This document shows positions 3,823 through 37,699 of a DNA stretch of 64,000 nucleotides, piece after piece. This stretch comes from Lentilactobacillus senioris DSM 24302 = JCM 17472 (GTDB lineage: Bacteria; Bacillota; Bacilli; Lactobacillales; Lactobacillaceae): NCBI RefSeq assembly GCF_001436555.1, contig NZ_AYZR01000004.1:124001-188000 (forward strand), written 5' to 3'. Under the pieces are notes generated by a model. That model saw nothing but the letters and a program-made list of their open reading frames with translations, was not told the DNA's origin and searched no databases. Position 1 is the first letter of the stretch. Every line of letters starts with the position of its first letter. A program made the translations under genes and the position numbers.

Positions 3823-5014
3823 GTTCTACACCTCCATTACCGTTTAATGCGTCTAAGATGGCACCCCGAATAATAATTCCCCGCAACCGTTGCTTGTCAT
3901 CTAAGACCGCAATAGGAACCGGAGAATGTGAAGCCTCGTCCATCATTTCTTTTAATGGCGTATCTAGTTCTACCGTGGGAACGTCGTGCTTCAAAATTCC
4001 GCTTAAAGAACGATTATTATCCTTAATCAATTGAATAACATCCGCCGAATCGATCAAGCCCACCATTTGATGCTTATTATCAATCACATAGAGACTGGAA
4101 ATTTCGTTTTCTCTCATTCGGCGTAAAGCCAATCGGGGACCATCCTTTTCGATATTGACCGTTACTGGTCTAATCATAACCTTACTTGCGGTTAGCACCT
4201 TACTACGATCGACGTCTTCAATAAACCGTTCCACATAGTCATTGGCTGGATGGGTCAAGATGTCTTCAGGCGAGCCGATTTGGACAATTTCACCATCGCG
4301 CATAATCATAATATGATCTCCAATTCTCAAAGCCTCGTTAAGGTCATGGGAAATAAAGATAATGGTTTTTTGCATATTTTCTTGTAAATCTAACAGTTCG
4401 TTTTGCATTTCTTTGCGGTTAAGGGGGTCCAAAGCAGAAAAGGCTTCATCCATCAATAAAATTTCCGGATCGTTAGCCAATGCTCTAGCCAGCCCTACTC
4501 GCTGCTGCATTCCCCCAGAAAGTTGAGTGGGATATTGATCGTTGTAGCCGGTTAAGCCCACCATTTCGAGAGCTTCACTAGCCTTTTGTTGCCTAGTAGC
4601 TTTATCTACTCCTTGTATCTCCAAACCATATTCGGCATTTTCTAAGACCGTTCGGTTCGGTAACAGCGCAAAATTTTGAAACACCATACTCATTTTATGG
4701 CGGCGCATTTCTCTTAATTCATCTTTATTCATGTCCATTACGTCCTTGCCATCTAAAATGACTTGGCCGCTAGTAGGATCAATTAGCCGATTGAGCATTC
4801 TAATCGTAGTGGATTTACCACTACCAGAAAGGCCCATAATCACAAATATTTCTCCGTCTTCCACCGTAAAATTGGCTCGATCGACTCCGATCGTAGCTCC
4901 AGTTTCCTTCAAAATATCTGCTTTGCTAGCTCCATCCGCGAGGAGTTTCTTGGCCTTATTGACCCGTTTTCCAAAAATTTTAGTTAAGTTCTTAACCTCT
5001 ACTTTAGTAGTCAA
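3815..5014 (-). CDS. opuAA: Glycine betaine ABC transporter ATPase with tandem CBS domains
   Basis: 399 residues. Walker A GLSGSGKST is at ~61-69, the signature LSGGMQQRV at ~165 and Walker B ILLMDEAF at ~185. Two CBS repeats fill the C-terminus (~265-399). In OpuA relatives these CBS domains sense ionic strength (family knowledge). The start is TTG with an excellent AAGGAGG site 7 nt upstream; no ATG fits. It is the first gene of opuA and sits behind a hairpin-bearing leader (5062-5098) that could attenuate the operon. Confidence 0.93.
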   Translation of the reverse strand: MTTKVEVKNLTKIFGKRVNKAKKLLADGASKADILKETGATIGVDRANFTVEDGEIFVIMGLSGSGKSTTIRMLNRLIDPTSGQVILDGKDVMDMNKDELREMRRHKMSMVFQNFALLPNRTVLENAEYGLEIQGVDKATRQQKASEALEMVGLTGYNDQYPTQLSGGMQQRVGLARALANDPEILLMDEAFSALDPLNRKEMQNELLDLQENMQKTIIFISHDLNEALRIGDHIMIMRDGEIVQIGSPEDILTHPANDYVERFIEDVDRSKVLTASKVMIRPVTVNIEKDGPRLALRRMRENEISSLYVIDNKHQMVGLIDSADVIQLIKDNNRSLSGILKHDVPTVELDTPLKEMMDEASHSPVPIAVLDDKQRLRGIIIRGAILDALNGNGGVEHV

Positions 5015-29775: not shown

Positions 29776-29805
29776 AGTTGTTTCTCCTTAGGATAAGTTA
29801 TGAAG

Positions 29806-30987
29806 TTATTTTCGATAAACCTTTTTAAAAAGTCGTTGTATTATTTCTGTTTTTGTTTTGTTACTTATATTCTTAACATTCATATCATGACAAATATTTT
29901 TTAAATCTTTTATAGGCATTTTCAAATAATTAATTATATATATATAGTTCTCATCCAACATACGTTTAAAATTCTTTGCAATTTTAATTAATAATTTAAA
30001 TTCATCTTTTTTAAGATTACTCTTATAACAAAGATGCATAAACAAATTATAAATATCTTTTATATTATCTTTATCGTTAATAAGAGAATATCCAAACGGT
30101 ATTCCTAATCTTTCTTTTTTTCCATATTTATCTACAGTTATAACGCCCACAAGAATATTTTCAATTTTTATCTTTAGTCTCACAAAGTCTTCAGTTTCTT
30201 TTTCTGTGCTGTTATATTCATAAAATGCTTTATATATTCTATCCTTATACTTTTTAATTTTACTAGTACTTATTTTTAAGCAAACATAATATTTATCTTC
30301 AATATTCTTTATAGAAATATTATATCCTAAAAAATTAAATGATCCAGAGTTTAACTTTAAATCATTATCAGTTACCATATAAAATTTTTTTTCAGATATC
30401 TTTAAATTTATACCGTTTAAAAAAGATTTAATTTGATTTTTAATTATGATAAGTTCATCATTCTTTACAGAGTATGGCAATATGAGAACAAAATCATCAA
30501 CAAACCTTTCATAAAGTAAATATTTATAGTTTAAAGTCATGTATTGATCAAAATTTTTAAGATATATCTCAGATAAAATAGAAGAAATAGGATTACCTTG
30601 AGGAATACCAGTTATGGTTCTATCAAAAAAAATTTCTTTTAGCAACTTTTCCTCAGAATTTGAAAATGTGCCATTACTAAAAATTATCCTATATAATTTA
30701 CTTTTATCAACACTATCAAAGAAATGGCTAATATCACCTCTTATTATTGTAAATTCATTGTTATTTACTTCTCTATATGTATTTTTTGAGTCAATAACAA
30801 TGTTACCATTAGAAATCGTTTCTACTATATCTGTAATTACTTTATATCTATCTTTAGATCTAATTGACCAAAAGAATTTAATTTTATTTGATAACAGCTT
30901 ATATTTATTAATCATATCTGCAGAATATTTATATACAATTCTGTTGTTAACAATAATTTTGTTATCATAACCACTTTTTCGGCTCAT
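29806..30987 (-). CDS. drt3a: Defence-associated reverse transcriptase, first RT of a divergent pair (DRT type 3 UG3-like)
   Basis: About 393 residues. RT blocks are in order: IIRGDISHFFDSVD (motif A, Asp85), GIPQGNPISSILSEIYL (B, ~127-143), YERFVDDFVLI (C, catalytic Asp pair at ~164-165), ISEKKFYM (D) and FNFLGYNIS (E, ~217). No maturase or endonuclease domain follows, so it is not a group II intron RT. The last ~35 residues (IKDLKNICHDMN... KTEIIQRLFKK) resemble a SAP helix-turn-helix. The ATG at 30987 is preferred (AGAGG 13 nt upstream) over 31014. The coding sequence is extremely AT-rich relative to neighbours, a sign of transfer. Naming rests on size, pairing and spacer content. Confidence 0.75.
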   Translation of the reverse strand: MSRKSGYDNKIIVNNRIVYKYSADMINKYKLLSNKIKFFWSIRSKDRYKVITDIVETISNGNIVIDSKNTYREVNNNEFTIIRGDISHFFDSVDKSKLYRIIFSNGTFSNSEEKLLKEIFFDRTITGIPQGNPISSILSEIYLKNFDQYMTLNYKYLLYERFVDDFVLILPYSVKNDELIIIKNQIKSFLNGINLKISEKKFYMVTDNDLKLNSGSFNFLGYNISIKNIEDKYYVCLKISTSKIKKYKDRIYKAFYEYNSTEKETEDFVRLKIKIENILVGVITVDKYGKKERLGIPFGYSLINDKDNIKDIYNLFMHLCYKSNLKKDEFKLLIKIAKNFKRMLDENYIYIINYLKMPIKDLKNICHDMNVKNISNKTKTEIIQRLFKKVYRK

Positions 30988-30995
30988 AATATGTA

Positions 30996-31151
30996 TATAA
31001 CCTCTATATTCCATAAAAATAAGAATATTTATTTTAATAAAATAAATTGAACACTATATGCATAGCATCCTTTGTGTGTGGACGTAATAGATTATAAATG
31101 ATGTATAATTCACCATTTATACATAACATCTACCAGTCAATAGAGGTTATA
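30996..31151. ncRNA. Candidate ncRNA/control region between the two RT genes
   Basis: The spacer is bounded by a perfect 12-bp inverted repeat: TATAACCTCTAT (30996-31007) and ATAGAGGTTATA (31140-31151). It contains a hairpin ATGTATAA / TTATACAT (31101-31124), a TATGCATA palindrome (31057-31064), and a GTGTGTG tract (31074-31080) that reads CCACACACAAAGG on the minus strand. An AC-repeat in an RT-associated ncRNA would suit templating. TATAAT-like boxes occur on both strands. Strand and ends of any RNA are not determined. Confidence 0.5.
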
Positions 31152-31183
31152 AAATCATTATAATAAATATTAAGGAAAAAACA

Positions 31184-33166
31184 ATGGCTAATAATTATTT
31201 TTTACGTACTGATATTCTTCCAGAAGAAGTACCATTATTATTTTCAAATAAACAACTATTTTCAAATAAAAATTTTACAGAAACAGAAATAAGAAAGATA
31301 ATTTTAAATCAAAAAGAAAATATTTTTAATTTTCCAAAACTCGGAGAATTTAGTAAGAAACAGGAAAGCATTCCATTCAAATATCAAGTAAACGTTCGTA
31401 AAAATAAGTCCAGAACACTAAGTTTACTTCACCCACTAGCCCAATTACAATGTTTAATATTTATAATTAAATTTGAAAACAAAATAACTATTGCAGCTTC
31501 CAGATCAAATTTTAGCGTTAGATATCCCATTACACGTAATAACAATCAACTAGATCTAACGTCTTCAGAAATTACTTCGATAAAAAAATTGGAAGGTACA
31601 TTTCTTCAACATACAAATAAACATATTTCATCAGAACAGCTAATACGTTCATTTAGACATTATTTTTCATATTCTAAGGTTCAATCTATGAATGAGCTTT
31701 ATAATTCAAGTGATTTTATAAATGCTCAAGAAAAATTTATGCATATGGTAAAGATTGATATACAAAATTTCTTTCCAAGCATTTATACACACACATTATC
31801 ATGGGTTCTTTTCAGATCTAAAAAAAACGCTAAATTATATAGATCTTCAGATATGTTTGAAAATACTATAGACCTAGTTGCTCGCGAAATAAACTATGGA
31901 GAAACAAACGGAATAATTATCGGTCCAGAATTTAGCAGAATATTAGCAGAAATATTATTATGTCAAATTGATAATAATGTTGAGAGCAAATTATATAAAG
32001 AAAAAATTATACACGAAAGAGATTATAAAATTTTTAGATTTGTAGACGATATTTTCATATTTTATGATGAAGAAAAAATTAAAAATTATGTAATAAATAT
32101 TTTAAAAAAACAATTATCGGATATTAATTTAACTCTAAATTCTTCAAAAATGTCTGTGTACTCATTTACATTATCATCTTCATTATCTCCTGTTAACAAG
32201 ATAGGATTTTATATCAACAATTTTAAAAATAAAAAAATTATTTTATCTAATGTATTTTCTAAAAATAGTTTAATATCAGCTGATGATATACGGGGCACAA
32301 ATCAGGATTGGAAACTACTTTTTACACAAGTACTACAGCTTAGTCAAGAAAATATTTCAGATTCTTCCAAAATAATTAATTATTTTTTATCATCACTTCA
32401 ACATTTTATGAATATGAAGCCTGGCAAAAGGTATATCAAATATCTCAATCTTCTAAGAACATTTCTTCAAGGATTAACTAACTTGTTAAAGGCGTCGCCA
32501 ATGCAAACAACATATACTTACACTTATTATGTTTTAATCACATTGATTAACCAATTAGAACAAAGTTATAAAGAAGACAGTTACGGTAAAGAAAATTTAA
32601 TTAAATATTTTCAGATGATATTCCAATGCTTATCTAATCTTGTCTCATATTCTTGGTTTGATATTAATCAAGGATATGATTTTTTACCAATTTTAAAGTA
32701 CTTAAATAAATTCGAATTATATTTAAATTCATATCAACTTATTTCAATGCTTAAAGATGCCGAAAATAAGTATTTTGTTTGGTCTTCTGTAGCATATTAC
32801 ATTTATAATACTAAAGATAAAAATACAGAATTACGTTATTTAACTGTTAAGAAAGTTCTTCATAAATTATTATCACAATATGTAATCAATTACTCCTTAA
32901 AAGGTAAAGAAAAAGATATCTGGTTTGATTCAGAGTGGTTTTATTTATTAAATGATTTTTCTAAATATCCTGGATTCAATAAAGCCGAATTAAATATATT
33001 AAAAGATAAATATTTAAACAGTATTAAAAAAACAGGTTTAGGAAAAATAGCAAAAGAATTTAGTAAAAATTCCTATTATGCATGGGATTCAGAGTTTGAG
33101 GATTTTTCTAAAAAGTTATTCTACAAAAAAATTATTAGTAAATATAATAAAAATATAAATTATTAA
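31184..33166 (+). CDS. drt3b: Defence-associated reverse transcriptase, second RT (DRT type 3 UG8-like)
   Basis: 660 residues. RT motifs: MVKIDIQNFFPSIY (motif A, Asp192), NGIIIGPEFSRILAEILLCQID (B, ~242-263; IIIGPEFSR replaces the usual PQG, as in Abi/DRT enzymes) and YKIFRFVDDIFIFYDE (C, Asp288/289). An N-terminal ~180-residue region precedes the palm, and a ~330-residue helical C-terminus of unknown function follows. It is transcribed divergently from the first RT. SD AAGGA 8 nt before ATG. It ends 23 nt before the DUF2075 gene with no terminator. Known type 3 DRT systems pair two RTs of about these sizes. Confidence 0.75.
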   Translation: MANNYFLRTDILPEEVPLLFSNKQLFSNKNFTETEIRKIILNQKENIFNFPKLGEFSKKQESIPFKYQVNVRKNKSRTLSLLHPLAQLQCLIFIIKFENKITIAASRSNFSVRYPITRNNNQLDLTSSEITSIKKLEGTFLQHTNKHISSEQLIRSFRHYFSYSKVQSMNELYNSSDFINAQEKFMHMVKIDIQNFFPSIYTHTLSWVLFRSKKNAKLYRSSDMFENTIDLVAREINYGETNGIIIGPEFSRILAEILLCQIDNNVESKLYKEKIIHERDYKIFRFVDDIFIFYDEEKIKNYVINILKKQLSDINLTLNSSKMSVYSFTLSSSLSPVNKIGFYINNFKNKKIILSNVFSKNSLISADDIRGTNQDWKLLFTQVLQLSQENISDSSKIINYFLSSLQHFMNMKPGKRYIKYLNLLRTFLQGLTNLLKASPMQTTYTYTYYVLITLINQLEQSYKEDSYGKENLIKYFQMIFQCLSNLVSYSWFDINQGYDFLPILKYLNKFELYLNSYQLISMLKDAENKYFVWSSVAYYIYNTKDKNTELRYLTVKKVLHKLLSQYVINYSLKGKEKDIWFDSEWFYLLNDFSKYPGFNKAELNILKDKYLNSIKKTGLGKIAKEFSKNSYYAWDSEFEDFSKKLFYKKIISKYNKNINY

Positions 33167-33189
33167 ATTACTAACTTAGGAGCATCTAC

Positions 33190-34353
33190 ATGAACGAAAT
33201 TTTAAAAGAACAATTCTTCGTCGAAGATTTAGCTGACGATCAAAAAAACGTCATTAACAACATTAATGGCTACATCAAACAAAGCCTAAATGGCTCCAAA
33301 CACTCCGTTGCAATCATCGAAGGGGCTGCCGGGACTGGTAAATCAGTGGTCTTAATGGAATTGGTTCGTAAGTACATGACCGATAAACACTACAAGACCG
33401 CCCTAGTCGTCAACCATCCCGAACTCTATAAAGCTTACCGGGATTTGGGTGAATCAATCCCAAACATGAAGGTTAACTCCATTCGCCGCCCCACTTCATT
33501 AATTAACGATGCGCAAAAGAATCATAAAAAATACGACATTATTTTCGTTGATGAAGCCCACTTGCTCTATTCCAAATCAGAACCCTACGCGCATTACCGC
33601 GGTCAAAACCAACTAACTGATTTAATGGATCTCGCCAAAGTAGTGGTCGCAGTTTACGATTTCGAACAAGTCTTTCAATCCAAGATGTACTGGGATAAGG
33701 ACCTGCTCTTCAAAACCATTGGTCAACACCCTTACGAAGTCTTCAGTATGAACTTCCAGTACCGGATGGTAGCTAGCGACGAACAAGTTCAGTGGATGGA
33801 TGATTTAACAGCTGAACAACCCATCAAACCATTTCCTACCAATAGTGACTTTGAATTCGAAGTTTTCGATAAGGCTGGCAAAATGTTTGAGGCCATCAAG
33901 AAGCGCAACAAAGAAGTCGGCATGAGTCGAATGGTAGCGACTTCCGGTTTTCCTCGAATTGATGGGCGGCATAACGTGGAAATGGATACTTTCAACTTAC
34001 CTTGGGATGAATGGGATCCTCAACGAACACACTGGGCTAAACGCGAAGGCTCAATTACCCAAGTTGGTACCATTTATACCTTACAGGGGTTTGATTTAAA
34101 CTACGTCGGCATGGTTATCGGTCCTTCATTTGGCTACGATCCCAAAACCGACACCATGACCATCATCCCCGAAAAATATTCCCACAAGGAAATCTTCAAA
34201 AAGCGTAAAGACATCAAATTTACCCAAGAAGAATACAAAGTCTTCATCGCTAACGTGCTAAACGTTTTGATGAAACGTGGTAAGTACGGACTGTATTTGA
34301 CGGCCTATGATCCTGCCTTACGCAAGCGACTTTTAGAATTGAACCAGAACTAA
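33190..34353 (+). CDS. DUF2075 P-loop ATPase
   Basis: 387 residues. Walker A EGAAGTGKSVVLMELV (~44-59) and Walker B DIIFVDEAHLLY (~117-128) match superfamily I helicase-like DUF2075 proteins; GTIYTLQGFDLNYVGMVIG is a further family motif. Codon use is ordinary for this genome, in sharp contrast to the preceding RT gene, so it looks native. SD TTAGGAG. Function is unknown. With the RT gene ending 23 nt upstream it has probably lost its own promoter. Partnership with the RTs is possible but the base composition argues against a shared origin. Confidence 0.8.
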   Translation: MNEILKEQFFVEDLADDQKNVINNINGYIKQSLNGSKHSVAIIEGAAGTGKSVVLMELVRKYMTDKHYKTALVVNHPELYKAYRDLGESIPNMKVNSIRRPTSLINDAQKNHKKYDIIFVDEAHLLYSKSEPYAHYRGQNQLTDLMDLAKVVVAVYDFEQVFQSKMYWDKDLLFKTIGQHPYEVFSMNFQYRMVASDEQVQWMDDLTAEQPIKPFPTNSDFEFEVFDKAGKMFEAIKKRNKEVGMSRMVATSGFPRIDGRHNVEMDTFNLPWDEWDPQRTHWAKREGSITQVGTIYTLQGFDLNYVGMVIGPSFGYDPKTDTMTIIPEKYSHKEIFKKRKDIKFTQEEYKVFIANVLNVLMKRGKYGLYLTAYDPALRKRLLELNQN

Positions 34354-36928: not shown

Positions 36929-37699
36929 TTAAAATTTAACAATGGCATTTAACCTAAAATTATTTAATCCTGTCACCGGATCTAATTTAAATGCGCACTT
37001 TTTTAAACTTCCTATAGAAATATTTTCTCCATTTTTGCCAATATCTTCAAACAAAGCAATTCGTGATTCTCTTTGATAATTATATTTTTCACGCTTTAAA
37101 AATACTATTTTACCAGGATCTGCTTTAAACTCGTCTACCGTGATATTTTGCTGAATTGACTCTGGATAATATTCTACGTTTTGTAACCGAATATTTCTTC
37201 CTTTTTGAGTAAACTTACTATCCATAACACTTAGCAACCCACTAGCATTAATAACAACCGGAATACGCTTATTATCATCACTTAATCTTATTAAATCATC
37301 AATAACATTATCCTTTATTTTTAATACTGCTTTTTCAGTTTTTTTATCATATTCTTCAATTTCTAAATCTTCTCTAGCATTAAGGTTACACAATGATAGA
37401 ACTCCCCATTCTCGGACAGTATCATATGTAAATTCCACATTGATTGAATTAACATCATTAGGATCTAAAATATATTCTTTATCATCAATAATCATCGTAG
37501 TTTTGCTTTGTTTAGGATCAAAATTAATAATTCTAGCACCTTCACTTTTATCTCCAATAACATCATCACCATATTCATTTTCTAAATCAATAAAATAACC
37601 TAAAGGTGAAAAATGTAATTCTCCATTATTTATAAAATTATCAACGTACTGTGGTTCAACAAATTTAATTAATAATCCAGGAACTGTTTCTTTATCCAT
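36929..37699 (-). CDS. Unrecognised accessory protein, 256 residues
   Basis: A soluble, acidic protein with no signal or membrane segment. The N-terminus (GLLIKFVEPQYVDNFINNGELHFSPLGYF, then GDDVIGDKSEG) has the look of DUF2971-like or similar orphan proteins found in accessory regions, but I cannot assign a family. Further on: a FTYD...CNLNARED segment and a C-terminal KYNYQRESRIALFED, which may be catalytic-like. It is AT-rich compared with the housekeeping genes. SD AGGAGG is strong. It is isolated, with a terminator upstream and decayed sequence downstream, consistent with acquired cargo. Confidence 0.6.
   Translation of the reverse strand: MDKETVPGLLIKFVEPQYVDNFINNGELHFSPLGYFIDLENEYGDDVIGDKSEGARIINFDPKQSKTTMIIDDKEYILDPNDVNSINVEFTYDTVREWGVLSLCNLNAREDLEIEEYDKKTEKAVLKIKDNVIDDLIRLSDDNKRIPVVINASGLLSVMDSKFTQKGRNIRLQNVEYYPESIQQNITVDEFKADPGKIVFLKREKYNYQRESRIALFEDIGKNGENISIGSLKKCAFKLDPVTGLNNFRLNAIVKF

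Follow-up and report, generated by a model that had tools for sequence, protein, structure and literature searches.

We analysed a window of 64,000 nucleotides (nt) from Lentilactobacillus senioris DSM 24302 = JCM 17472 (contig NZ_AYZR01000004.1, positions 124,001 to 188,000 of the forward strand), in which two reverse transcriptase (RT) genes lie back to back around a predicted non-coding RNA (ncRNA). Their closest match is DRT type 3 (DRT3) which, according to the papers cited here, is the only described system in which RNA serves as template for one DNA strand and the active site of a protein for its complement. The locus comprises the following features:

29806..30987, minus strand: drt3a, UG3-type (class 2) RT of 393 amino acids, called from PADLOC, NCBIfam, profile-versus-PDB comparison and conserved aspartates
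30994..31154, minus strand: predicted DRT3 ncRNA with closing helix P1, boundary helix, template and further hairpins, called from its fold z score and from anatomy shared with relatives; its ends are estimates
31073..31079, minus strand: ACACACA, the predicted template of the RNA, left unpaired by the minimum-energy fold; the boundary helix ends 1 nt 5' of it
31157..31162, minus strand: TATAAT, candidate -10 element for transcription of the ncRNA and drt3a, followed after 5 nt by the first P1 pair
31184..33166, plus strand: drt3b, UG8-type (class 1) RT of 660 amino acids with tyrosine as its final residue, called from PADLOC, NCBIfam, profile-versus-PDB comparison and its residues

Both genes are intact open reading frames (ORFs) with a VDD motif in each, as a preliminary description of this DNA had claimed. 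The start of drt3a is more likely the ATG at 30987, giving 393 amino acids; an upstream in-frame ATG at 31014 would extend the ORF to 29806-31014 and the protein to 402 amino acids. The AT-rich island described around the pair was also recovered, with a G+C content of 22-26% in the three 1-kb bins over the RT genes versus 38-47% in the bins on either side (27-30 kb and 33-35 kb). The pair is flanked by genes for a cyclophilin-type isomerase and an SLFN-group-3 helicase.

We compared both proteins with defence-system families and solved structures. In PADLOC, the minus-strand protein matched Drt3a best (PDLC03768, 1.4e-50), far above the next different family, UG17 (2.9e-28), and the plus-strand protein matched Drt3b (PDLC03784, 1.8e-119), far above the next family, Drt6 (2.4e-45). 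Single-sequence searches of solved structures linked Drt3b to 26cz (3e-47) and 9z6y (4.5e-35), and Drt3a to 9z6y at 1.6e-8, barely above another RT. With profiles headed by the window proteins, 46 Drt3a aligned end to end with 9z6y_A (1.6e-105), and 54 Drt3b matched 26cz_A (8.1e-198) and 9z6y_H (6.6e-190), with nearly every profile position covered. By name and sequence, 26cz is the E. coli system EcoDRT3; the chains of 9z6y/9z6z are labelled Drt3a and Drt3b. The pairing of UG3 with UG8 RTs was already described, with 97% adjacency, in the part of PMC8934634 consulted.

The residues expected of a working pair are present. D85, D164 and D165 of Drt3a are invariant across 67 aligned Drt3a, and the catalytic aspartates D192, D288 and D289 of Drt3b are intact. 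According to the accessible text of PMC13174585, EcoDRT3b selects bases through E22, R71 and R241, and its primer is Y666. Residues E22, R71, R241, D278 and Y666 of EcoDRT3b correspond to E15, R77, R252, D288 and Y660 of the window Drt3b (read from alignments and numbered by hand), and these positions are conserved in 68, 67, 69, 69 and 66, respectively, of 69 aligned Drt3b; Y660 is the last residue of the window protein. Because the Drt3a and Drt3b families of PADLOC score far above the next ones, and because Drt3b retains its residues for catalysis, selectivity and priming, assignment of the locus to DRT3, with UG3 and UG8 RTs as first proposed, is supported by the sequences of both proteins.

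Other kinds of RT were considered and rejected. The group_II_RT_mat family scored 83 and 41 bits (cut-off 300), Retron St85 RT scored 42 bits with Drt3a (cut-off 235), and neither protein was assigned to a family of group II introns, retrons or diversity-generating retroelements, such families scoring far lower. Rfam gave no intron or retron RNA: in 5.5 kb searched at E values up to 1 no family fell in the locus and one weak match lay outside the RT pair, and in the whole window at gathering scores only tRNA was found. The absence of intron maturase and retron hallmarks noted at the outset thus held. Other DRT families also scored much lower than Drt3a and Drt3b, among them the class 1 RTs Drt4, Drt6 and AbiK, which are related to the RT domain of Drt3b and, as far as is known (see also PMC13213688), are single-gene systems. 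A weak Rho_N match was seen at the C-terminus of Drt3a (residues 365-394 of the 402-residue form; E 0.002, under the Pfam cut-off).

We surveyed gene layout in 135 loci, the window included, with short or weak loci (L001-L039 and L042-L044, several being duplicates) omitted. The query profile was made from divergent members, and 80 of 317 genome loci were kept; scanning the genome contigs with the window Drt3b as a single sequence found no relative, and a profile was required. Both genes are present in 112 of the 135 loci, so that the two are linked among homologues as well. In the remaining 23, the stretch examined contains a drt3b-like ORF alone (L092, L149 and 21 low-scoring class 1 RTs from viral contigs). 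Among two-gene loci, 28 are divergent and 84 run co-directionally from drt3a to drt3b. The divergent arrangement, first taken as a possible new architecture, differs from the co-directional order of EcoDRT3 but is not peculiar to the window. No description of it was found in the literature searched, and the words divergent, Bacillota and Firmicutes are absent from the accessible text of PMC13174585; it may be in print elsewhere.

The 28 divergent loci reduce to 21 by intergenic identity, the G291 locus and the Lentilactobacillus hilgardii locus being redundant, and to 20 without L041, a near copy of L040. All divergent loci that carry an organism name are from Bacillota, and the others belong to genomes that share family, order or class with the window. 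Two co-directional loci come from genomes of the window's class, L048 and L056; L048 is probably a misplaced contig, since its Drt3b has a very short branch that falls within Prevotella rows, and L056 is a long branch. Divergence is the usual DRT3 layout in the Bacillota sampled.

The predicted ncRNA lies 5' of drt3a on the same strand, with its 3' end just before the drt3a start codon. The minus strand of 30980-31190 folds with a z score of -4.15, versus -1.31 for the plus strand, and the ncRNA in its 243-nt context reaches -5.1. The minus-strand fold is multi-branched, with P1, a long helix whose 3' strand stops 1 nt short of ACACACA, and a pair of hairpins, after which the 3' arm closes P1. 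Plain sequence alignment of divergent ncRNAs gave no consensus fold, either for a mixed group or for a lactobacillus group, and anatomy was therefore compared through individual folds and their shuffles. An unpaired template beside a helix was found in 17 of the 20 distinct divergent loci (L041 being omitted from this test), whereas 200 shuffles averaged 2.6 loci and never exceeded 8. Similarly, ACACA is present on the drt3a strand in 19/21 divergent gaps and on the antisense strand in 2/21 (shuffled mean 4.3, maximum 10; 200 shuffles). In L047 and L051, both misses in the ORF-bounded gap, the motif can be seen by eye where the called start of the drt3a ORF overruns, which brings the count to 21/21. 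The longer ACACAC occurs in 13 of the 21 gaps, or 14 counting L051. These results support, as a prediction, the candidate ncRNA that had been placed between the genes.

Covariation was seen in relatives of the window RNA. In six of them, the window not being included, both-sided (compensatory) changes affect 35 of 52 pairs, versus 5-10 when partners were slid, in an alignment that had been fitted to the covariance model. The model was built from four enterococcal ncRNAs and reached L062, L066 and L059. In co-directional loci the motif lies elsewhere: ACACAC was found within 350 nt 3' of drt3b in 76/82, versus 1/82 on the antisense strand and 6/80 5' of drt3a. A looser template test was less clean for these loci (30/71, shuffled mean 12.0, maximum 17; 60 shuffles). 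The template is thus positioned between the genes in the divergent clade and 3' of drt3b in the co-directional clade, as in the DRT3 studied so far.

A TATAAT-like match (at least 5/6) lies just upstream of P1 in 15 of the 20 divergent loci; in the control, pooled from overlapping windows, the fraction is 0.26. A general promoter scan did not list the TATAAT at 31157-31162 and gave no promoter excess in the region (37 sites versus 31.5 expected). Because no terminator-like site was found between the ncRNA and drt3a, the two may share one transcript. The sole Shine-Dalgarno-like sequence before drt3a, AGAGG (31005-31001, minus strand), is 13 nt from the ATG and inside the 3' arm of P1, so that folding of the ncRNA could block drt3a translation; in some relatives the Shine-Dalgarno-like site of drt3a is, by eye, outside the closing helix. 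The fold abuts drt3a and takes in this AGAGG, as would be expected if it were merely a regulatory 5' leader and the true template RNA lay elsewhere. However, the ACACAC motif and the boundary helix recur in this position throughout the divergent clade, and we consider such a purely regulatory role very improbable.

Layout tracks phylogeny. In a Drt3b tree rooted on class 1 RTs, 20 divergent rows and L056 form one clade (Shimodaira-Hasegawa-like approximate likelihood ratio test, SH-aLRT, 97), and the other 57 co-directional rows form a second (SH-aLRT 90). A reduced tree, made without L056, two of the long outgroup rows and thirty rows of co-directional loci, recovered a clade of 19 divergent rows (98/95) and one of 28 co-directional rows (97/96). 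In the Drt3a tree, which has no outgroup, a branch of 99 separates 63 co-directional rows from 21 divergent rows and L056. Layout and sequence thus split together, on present sampling, near the base of DRT3, and the Drt3b of the two layouts form two supported sister clades once the long-branch row L056 is left out. The divergent layout appears to mark a deep Gram-positive branch, and by its position in these trees the window locus is DRT3 of a distinct lineage.

The depth of this branch raises the question of whether EcoDRT3 is a good guide to it. Drt3b identity to the window is only 25-49% within the divergent lineage; in 7 of 21 divergent loci (L045, L046, L047, L055, L060, L068 and L075) the template is shortened to ACACA followed by A or G; and the C-terminal priming tyrosine is missing from three Drt3b, all from divergent loci (L046, L047, which terminates in phenylalanine, and L054). 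The Bacillota lineage could thus be DRT3 by ancestry and yet make or use a different DNA product, with another primer or effector. The window itself, however, has the long ACACACA, the terminal tyrosine and all the selectivity residues, and we regard a different output as unlikely.

With considerable confidence, we interpret the locus as a complete anti-phage system of the DRT3 type, from a lineage specific to Bacillota, with a proposed poly(TG)/poly(CA) mechanism. In E. coli, according to the accessible text of PMC13174585, EcoDRT3a writes poly(TG) from an unpaired ACACAC-type template, EcoDRT3b writes poly(CA), and RecBCD restrains the product. DRT3 is characterised by a 6:6:6 complex, this double product and anti-phage activity. 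By analogy, Drt3a would bind the minus-strand ncRNA and repeatedly copy ACACACA into poly(TG), with the helix that immediately precedes the template as a barrier to read-through. Using its C-terminal Y660 as primer, Drt3b would make poly(CA) with no nucleic-acid template, its active-site E15 and R252 admitting A and C alternately. The two strands would anneal into repetitive double-stranded DNA, and build-up of this DNA, normally kept low by a host nuclease, would arrest the infected cell; AddAB/RexAB would here stand in for RecBCD as the nuclease guard. Transcription of the ncRNA probably begins just before the closing helix and continues into drt3a, with drt3b read in the opposite direction. 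Gene identity, intactness, residues, layout and layout phylogeny, and as predictions the position and fold of the RNA, are shown at the level of sequence. We infer all chemistry and defence from EcoDRT3 (PMC13174585), and with them RNA expression and a DNA product at the window locus; the shared transcription of ncRNA and drt3a and the role of AddAB are read from anatomy alone.

As far as the text of PMC13174585 goes, EcoDRT3 and the window share the two RT families, the selectivity residues, the C-terminal tyrosine and, by prediction in the window, an ACACAC template unpaired beside a stem-loop. In contrast, the EcoDRT3 genes are co-directional with the ncRNA downstream of drt3b, whereas those of the window are divergent with the ncRNA between them and 5' of drt3a. 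Drt3b identity between the two systems is about 23-30%, and the ncRNA sequences are not alignable.

Several results weigh against the assignment or parts of it. The top NCBIfam families of the window proteins are Drt3a and Drt3b, but at 135 bits against a cut-off of 200 and 289 bits against a cut-off of 350, respectively. The template test failed in 3 of the 20 loci (L054, L055 and L068). Covariation was demonstrated for relatives only, and the window ncRNA is without an alignable close relative. The enterococcal covariance model did not recover the window ncRNA in a 574-kb search; in 10 kb it gave E 0.3, tied with an unrelated 34-nt stretch. As for the nuclease guard, the genome has AddA above the cut-off, but the adjoining RexB-like gene is below its curated cut-off, as is the recD match; recB and recC were outside the search. 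In the 401-base gap itself the covariance model gave a weak match to the ncRNA (E 0.012).

The low NCBIfam scores recur in the lineage. Drt3a and Drt3b of four other divergent loci (L045, L047, L052 and L059) are likewise under the cut-offs, so that 5/5 divergent pairs are missed, in contrast to the single co-directional control, L070 (383 for Drt3a and 743 for Drt3b). Because annotation cut-offs miss the divergent pairs tested, DRT3 is probably under-reported in lactic acid bacteria.

The exchanged region at this site was delimited by comparison with L194, the corresponding locus of the sister genome G133:

29799..33169, no strand: exchanged segment, without counterpart in L194 by blastn of the window

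The sister genome is 94% identical over 4125 bases on one side of the site and 2245 bases on the other. Its neighbouring genes are 456 bp apart, versus 3.4 kb at the same site in the window. A 75-residue ORF lies between them (L194 about 4177-4404, minus strand) as the alternative content of the DRT3 site. Among the 24 genomes compared within the genus, two have a clear Drt3a, the window's own and G291, and three others had weak RT matches only. In the family sample, the Drt3b profile matched 37/397 genomes at 1e-3, full-length in four only. Absence from a close sister genome indicates that the system is dispensable and, with its rarity in the genus, would fit a decayed or silent DRT3, its genes open yet non-functional or unexpressed. 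Both frames are intact, however, all catalytic residues are kept, the RNA folds stably and its template is intact, and we find decay or silence hardly credible. A mobile-element insertion was also considered and rejected: there are no direct repeats of at least 14 nt within either flank searched singly (the flanks were not compared with each other), and no integrase gene is next to the RT pair.

Knowledge of DRT3 so far rests on co-directional systems of Gram-negative bacteria. The window belongs to a deep sister lineage in which the protein-template residues are retained and the RNA has changed beyond alignment, and such a lineage separates what is essential (ACACA, the boundary helix and the E/R/Y residues) from what is free. 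In addition, nature offers a test of the priming model in the three loci that lack a terminal tyrosine, and a host with AddAB, and with recD below the curated cut-off, is a test of the generality of the nuclease guard.

A possible third DRT3 layout was observed in L056, L196 (Erysipelothrix phage SE-1) and L197, where drt3a and drt3b, both PADLOC-confirmed, are co-directional. The gaps between the genes carry ACACA antisense in 3/3 and sense in 0/3:

L056, 5980-6151: inter-gene gap, fold z score -5.1 antisense versus -2.1 sense
L196, 2679-2967: inter-gene gap, fold z score -3.4 antisense versus -2.8 sense
L197, 2825-2952: inter-gene gap, fold z score -1.5 antisense versus -0.7 sense

No further full-length members of this layout were found in viral contigs, plasmids and 329 genomes.

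A broader scenario would have DRT3 divide early into two lineages that differ in their genetic wiring, the order with the ncRNA 5' of the class 2 RT (as in DRT10) being older and the E. coli order derived. In Bacillota the ncRNA would form the 5' leader when drt3a is transcribed, and a short control region acting in both directions would separate it from drt3b; the region where the ncRNA starts would overlap that of drt3b, so that template RNA, Drt3a and Drt3b would be opposed at both the DNA and the RNA level; in the window, the drt3a Shine-Dalgarno sequence would be locked in the closing helix of the ncRNA; and L056, L196 and L197 would represent a third wiring, with the template RNA antisense between co-directional drt3a and drt3b. 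Taken with all its parts, this scenario is speculative, and we think it more probably wrong than right.

The DRT3 system itself is known, and an RNA boundary beside the template is already described for DRT10 (PMC12632851, accessible text). DRT10, which consists of a UG17 RT, a SLATT protein and an ncRNA, is like the window in having the ncRNA upstream of the coding genes and the template directly 3' of a boundary-setting stem-loop, and UG17 is the second-best PADLOC family of the window Drt3a. It differs in having one RT with a SLATT protein, a variable template and no Drt3b (PMC12632851).

Closer relatives are plasmid pairs of Lactiplantibacillus plantarum and Pediococcus pentosaceus (NZ_CP013155.2, NZ_CP143286.1 and NZ_CP085475.1), whose Drt3b is 38% identical over 98%. 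As in the window, NZ_CP013155.2 and NZ_CP085475.1 have the divergent layout with the template in the gap; their pairs are annotated merely as RNA-directed DNA polymerase. Unlike the window locus, these pairs are plasmid-borne and stand beside IS30-type transposase and recombinase genes. L040 and L041 are DRT3 pairs of this divergent kind, and the plasmids that carry them, from the same two species, are mobilizable or conjugative.

Two further genes near the RT pair were noted. An AT-rich orphan ORF of 256 amino acids (36929-37699, minus strand) had no Pfam or NCBIfam match and a single weak PADLOC match (PDC-S31, 0.0054). The SLFN-group-3 helicase gene (33190-34353, plus strand) has a weak PADLOC match to Nhi (4.5e-16); at least seven further genomes within the genus carry a close orthologue, which suggests that it is an ordinary chromosomal gene.

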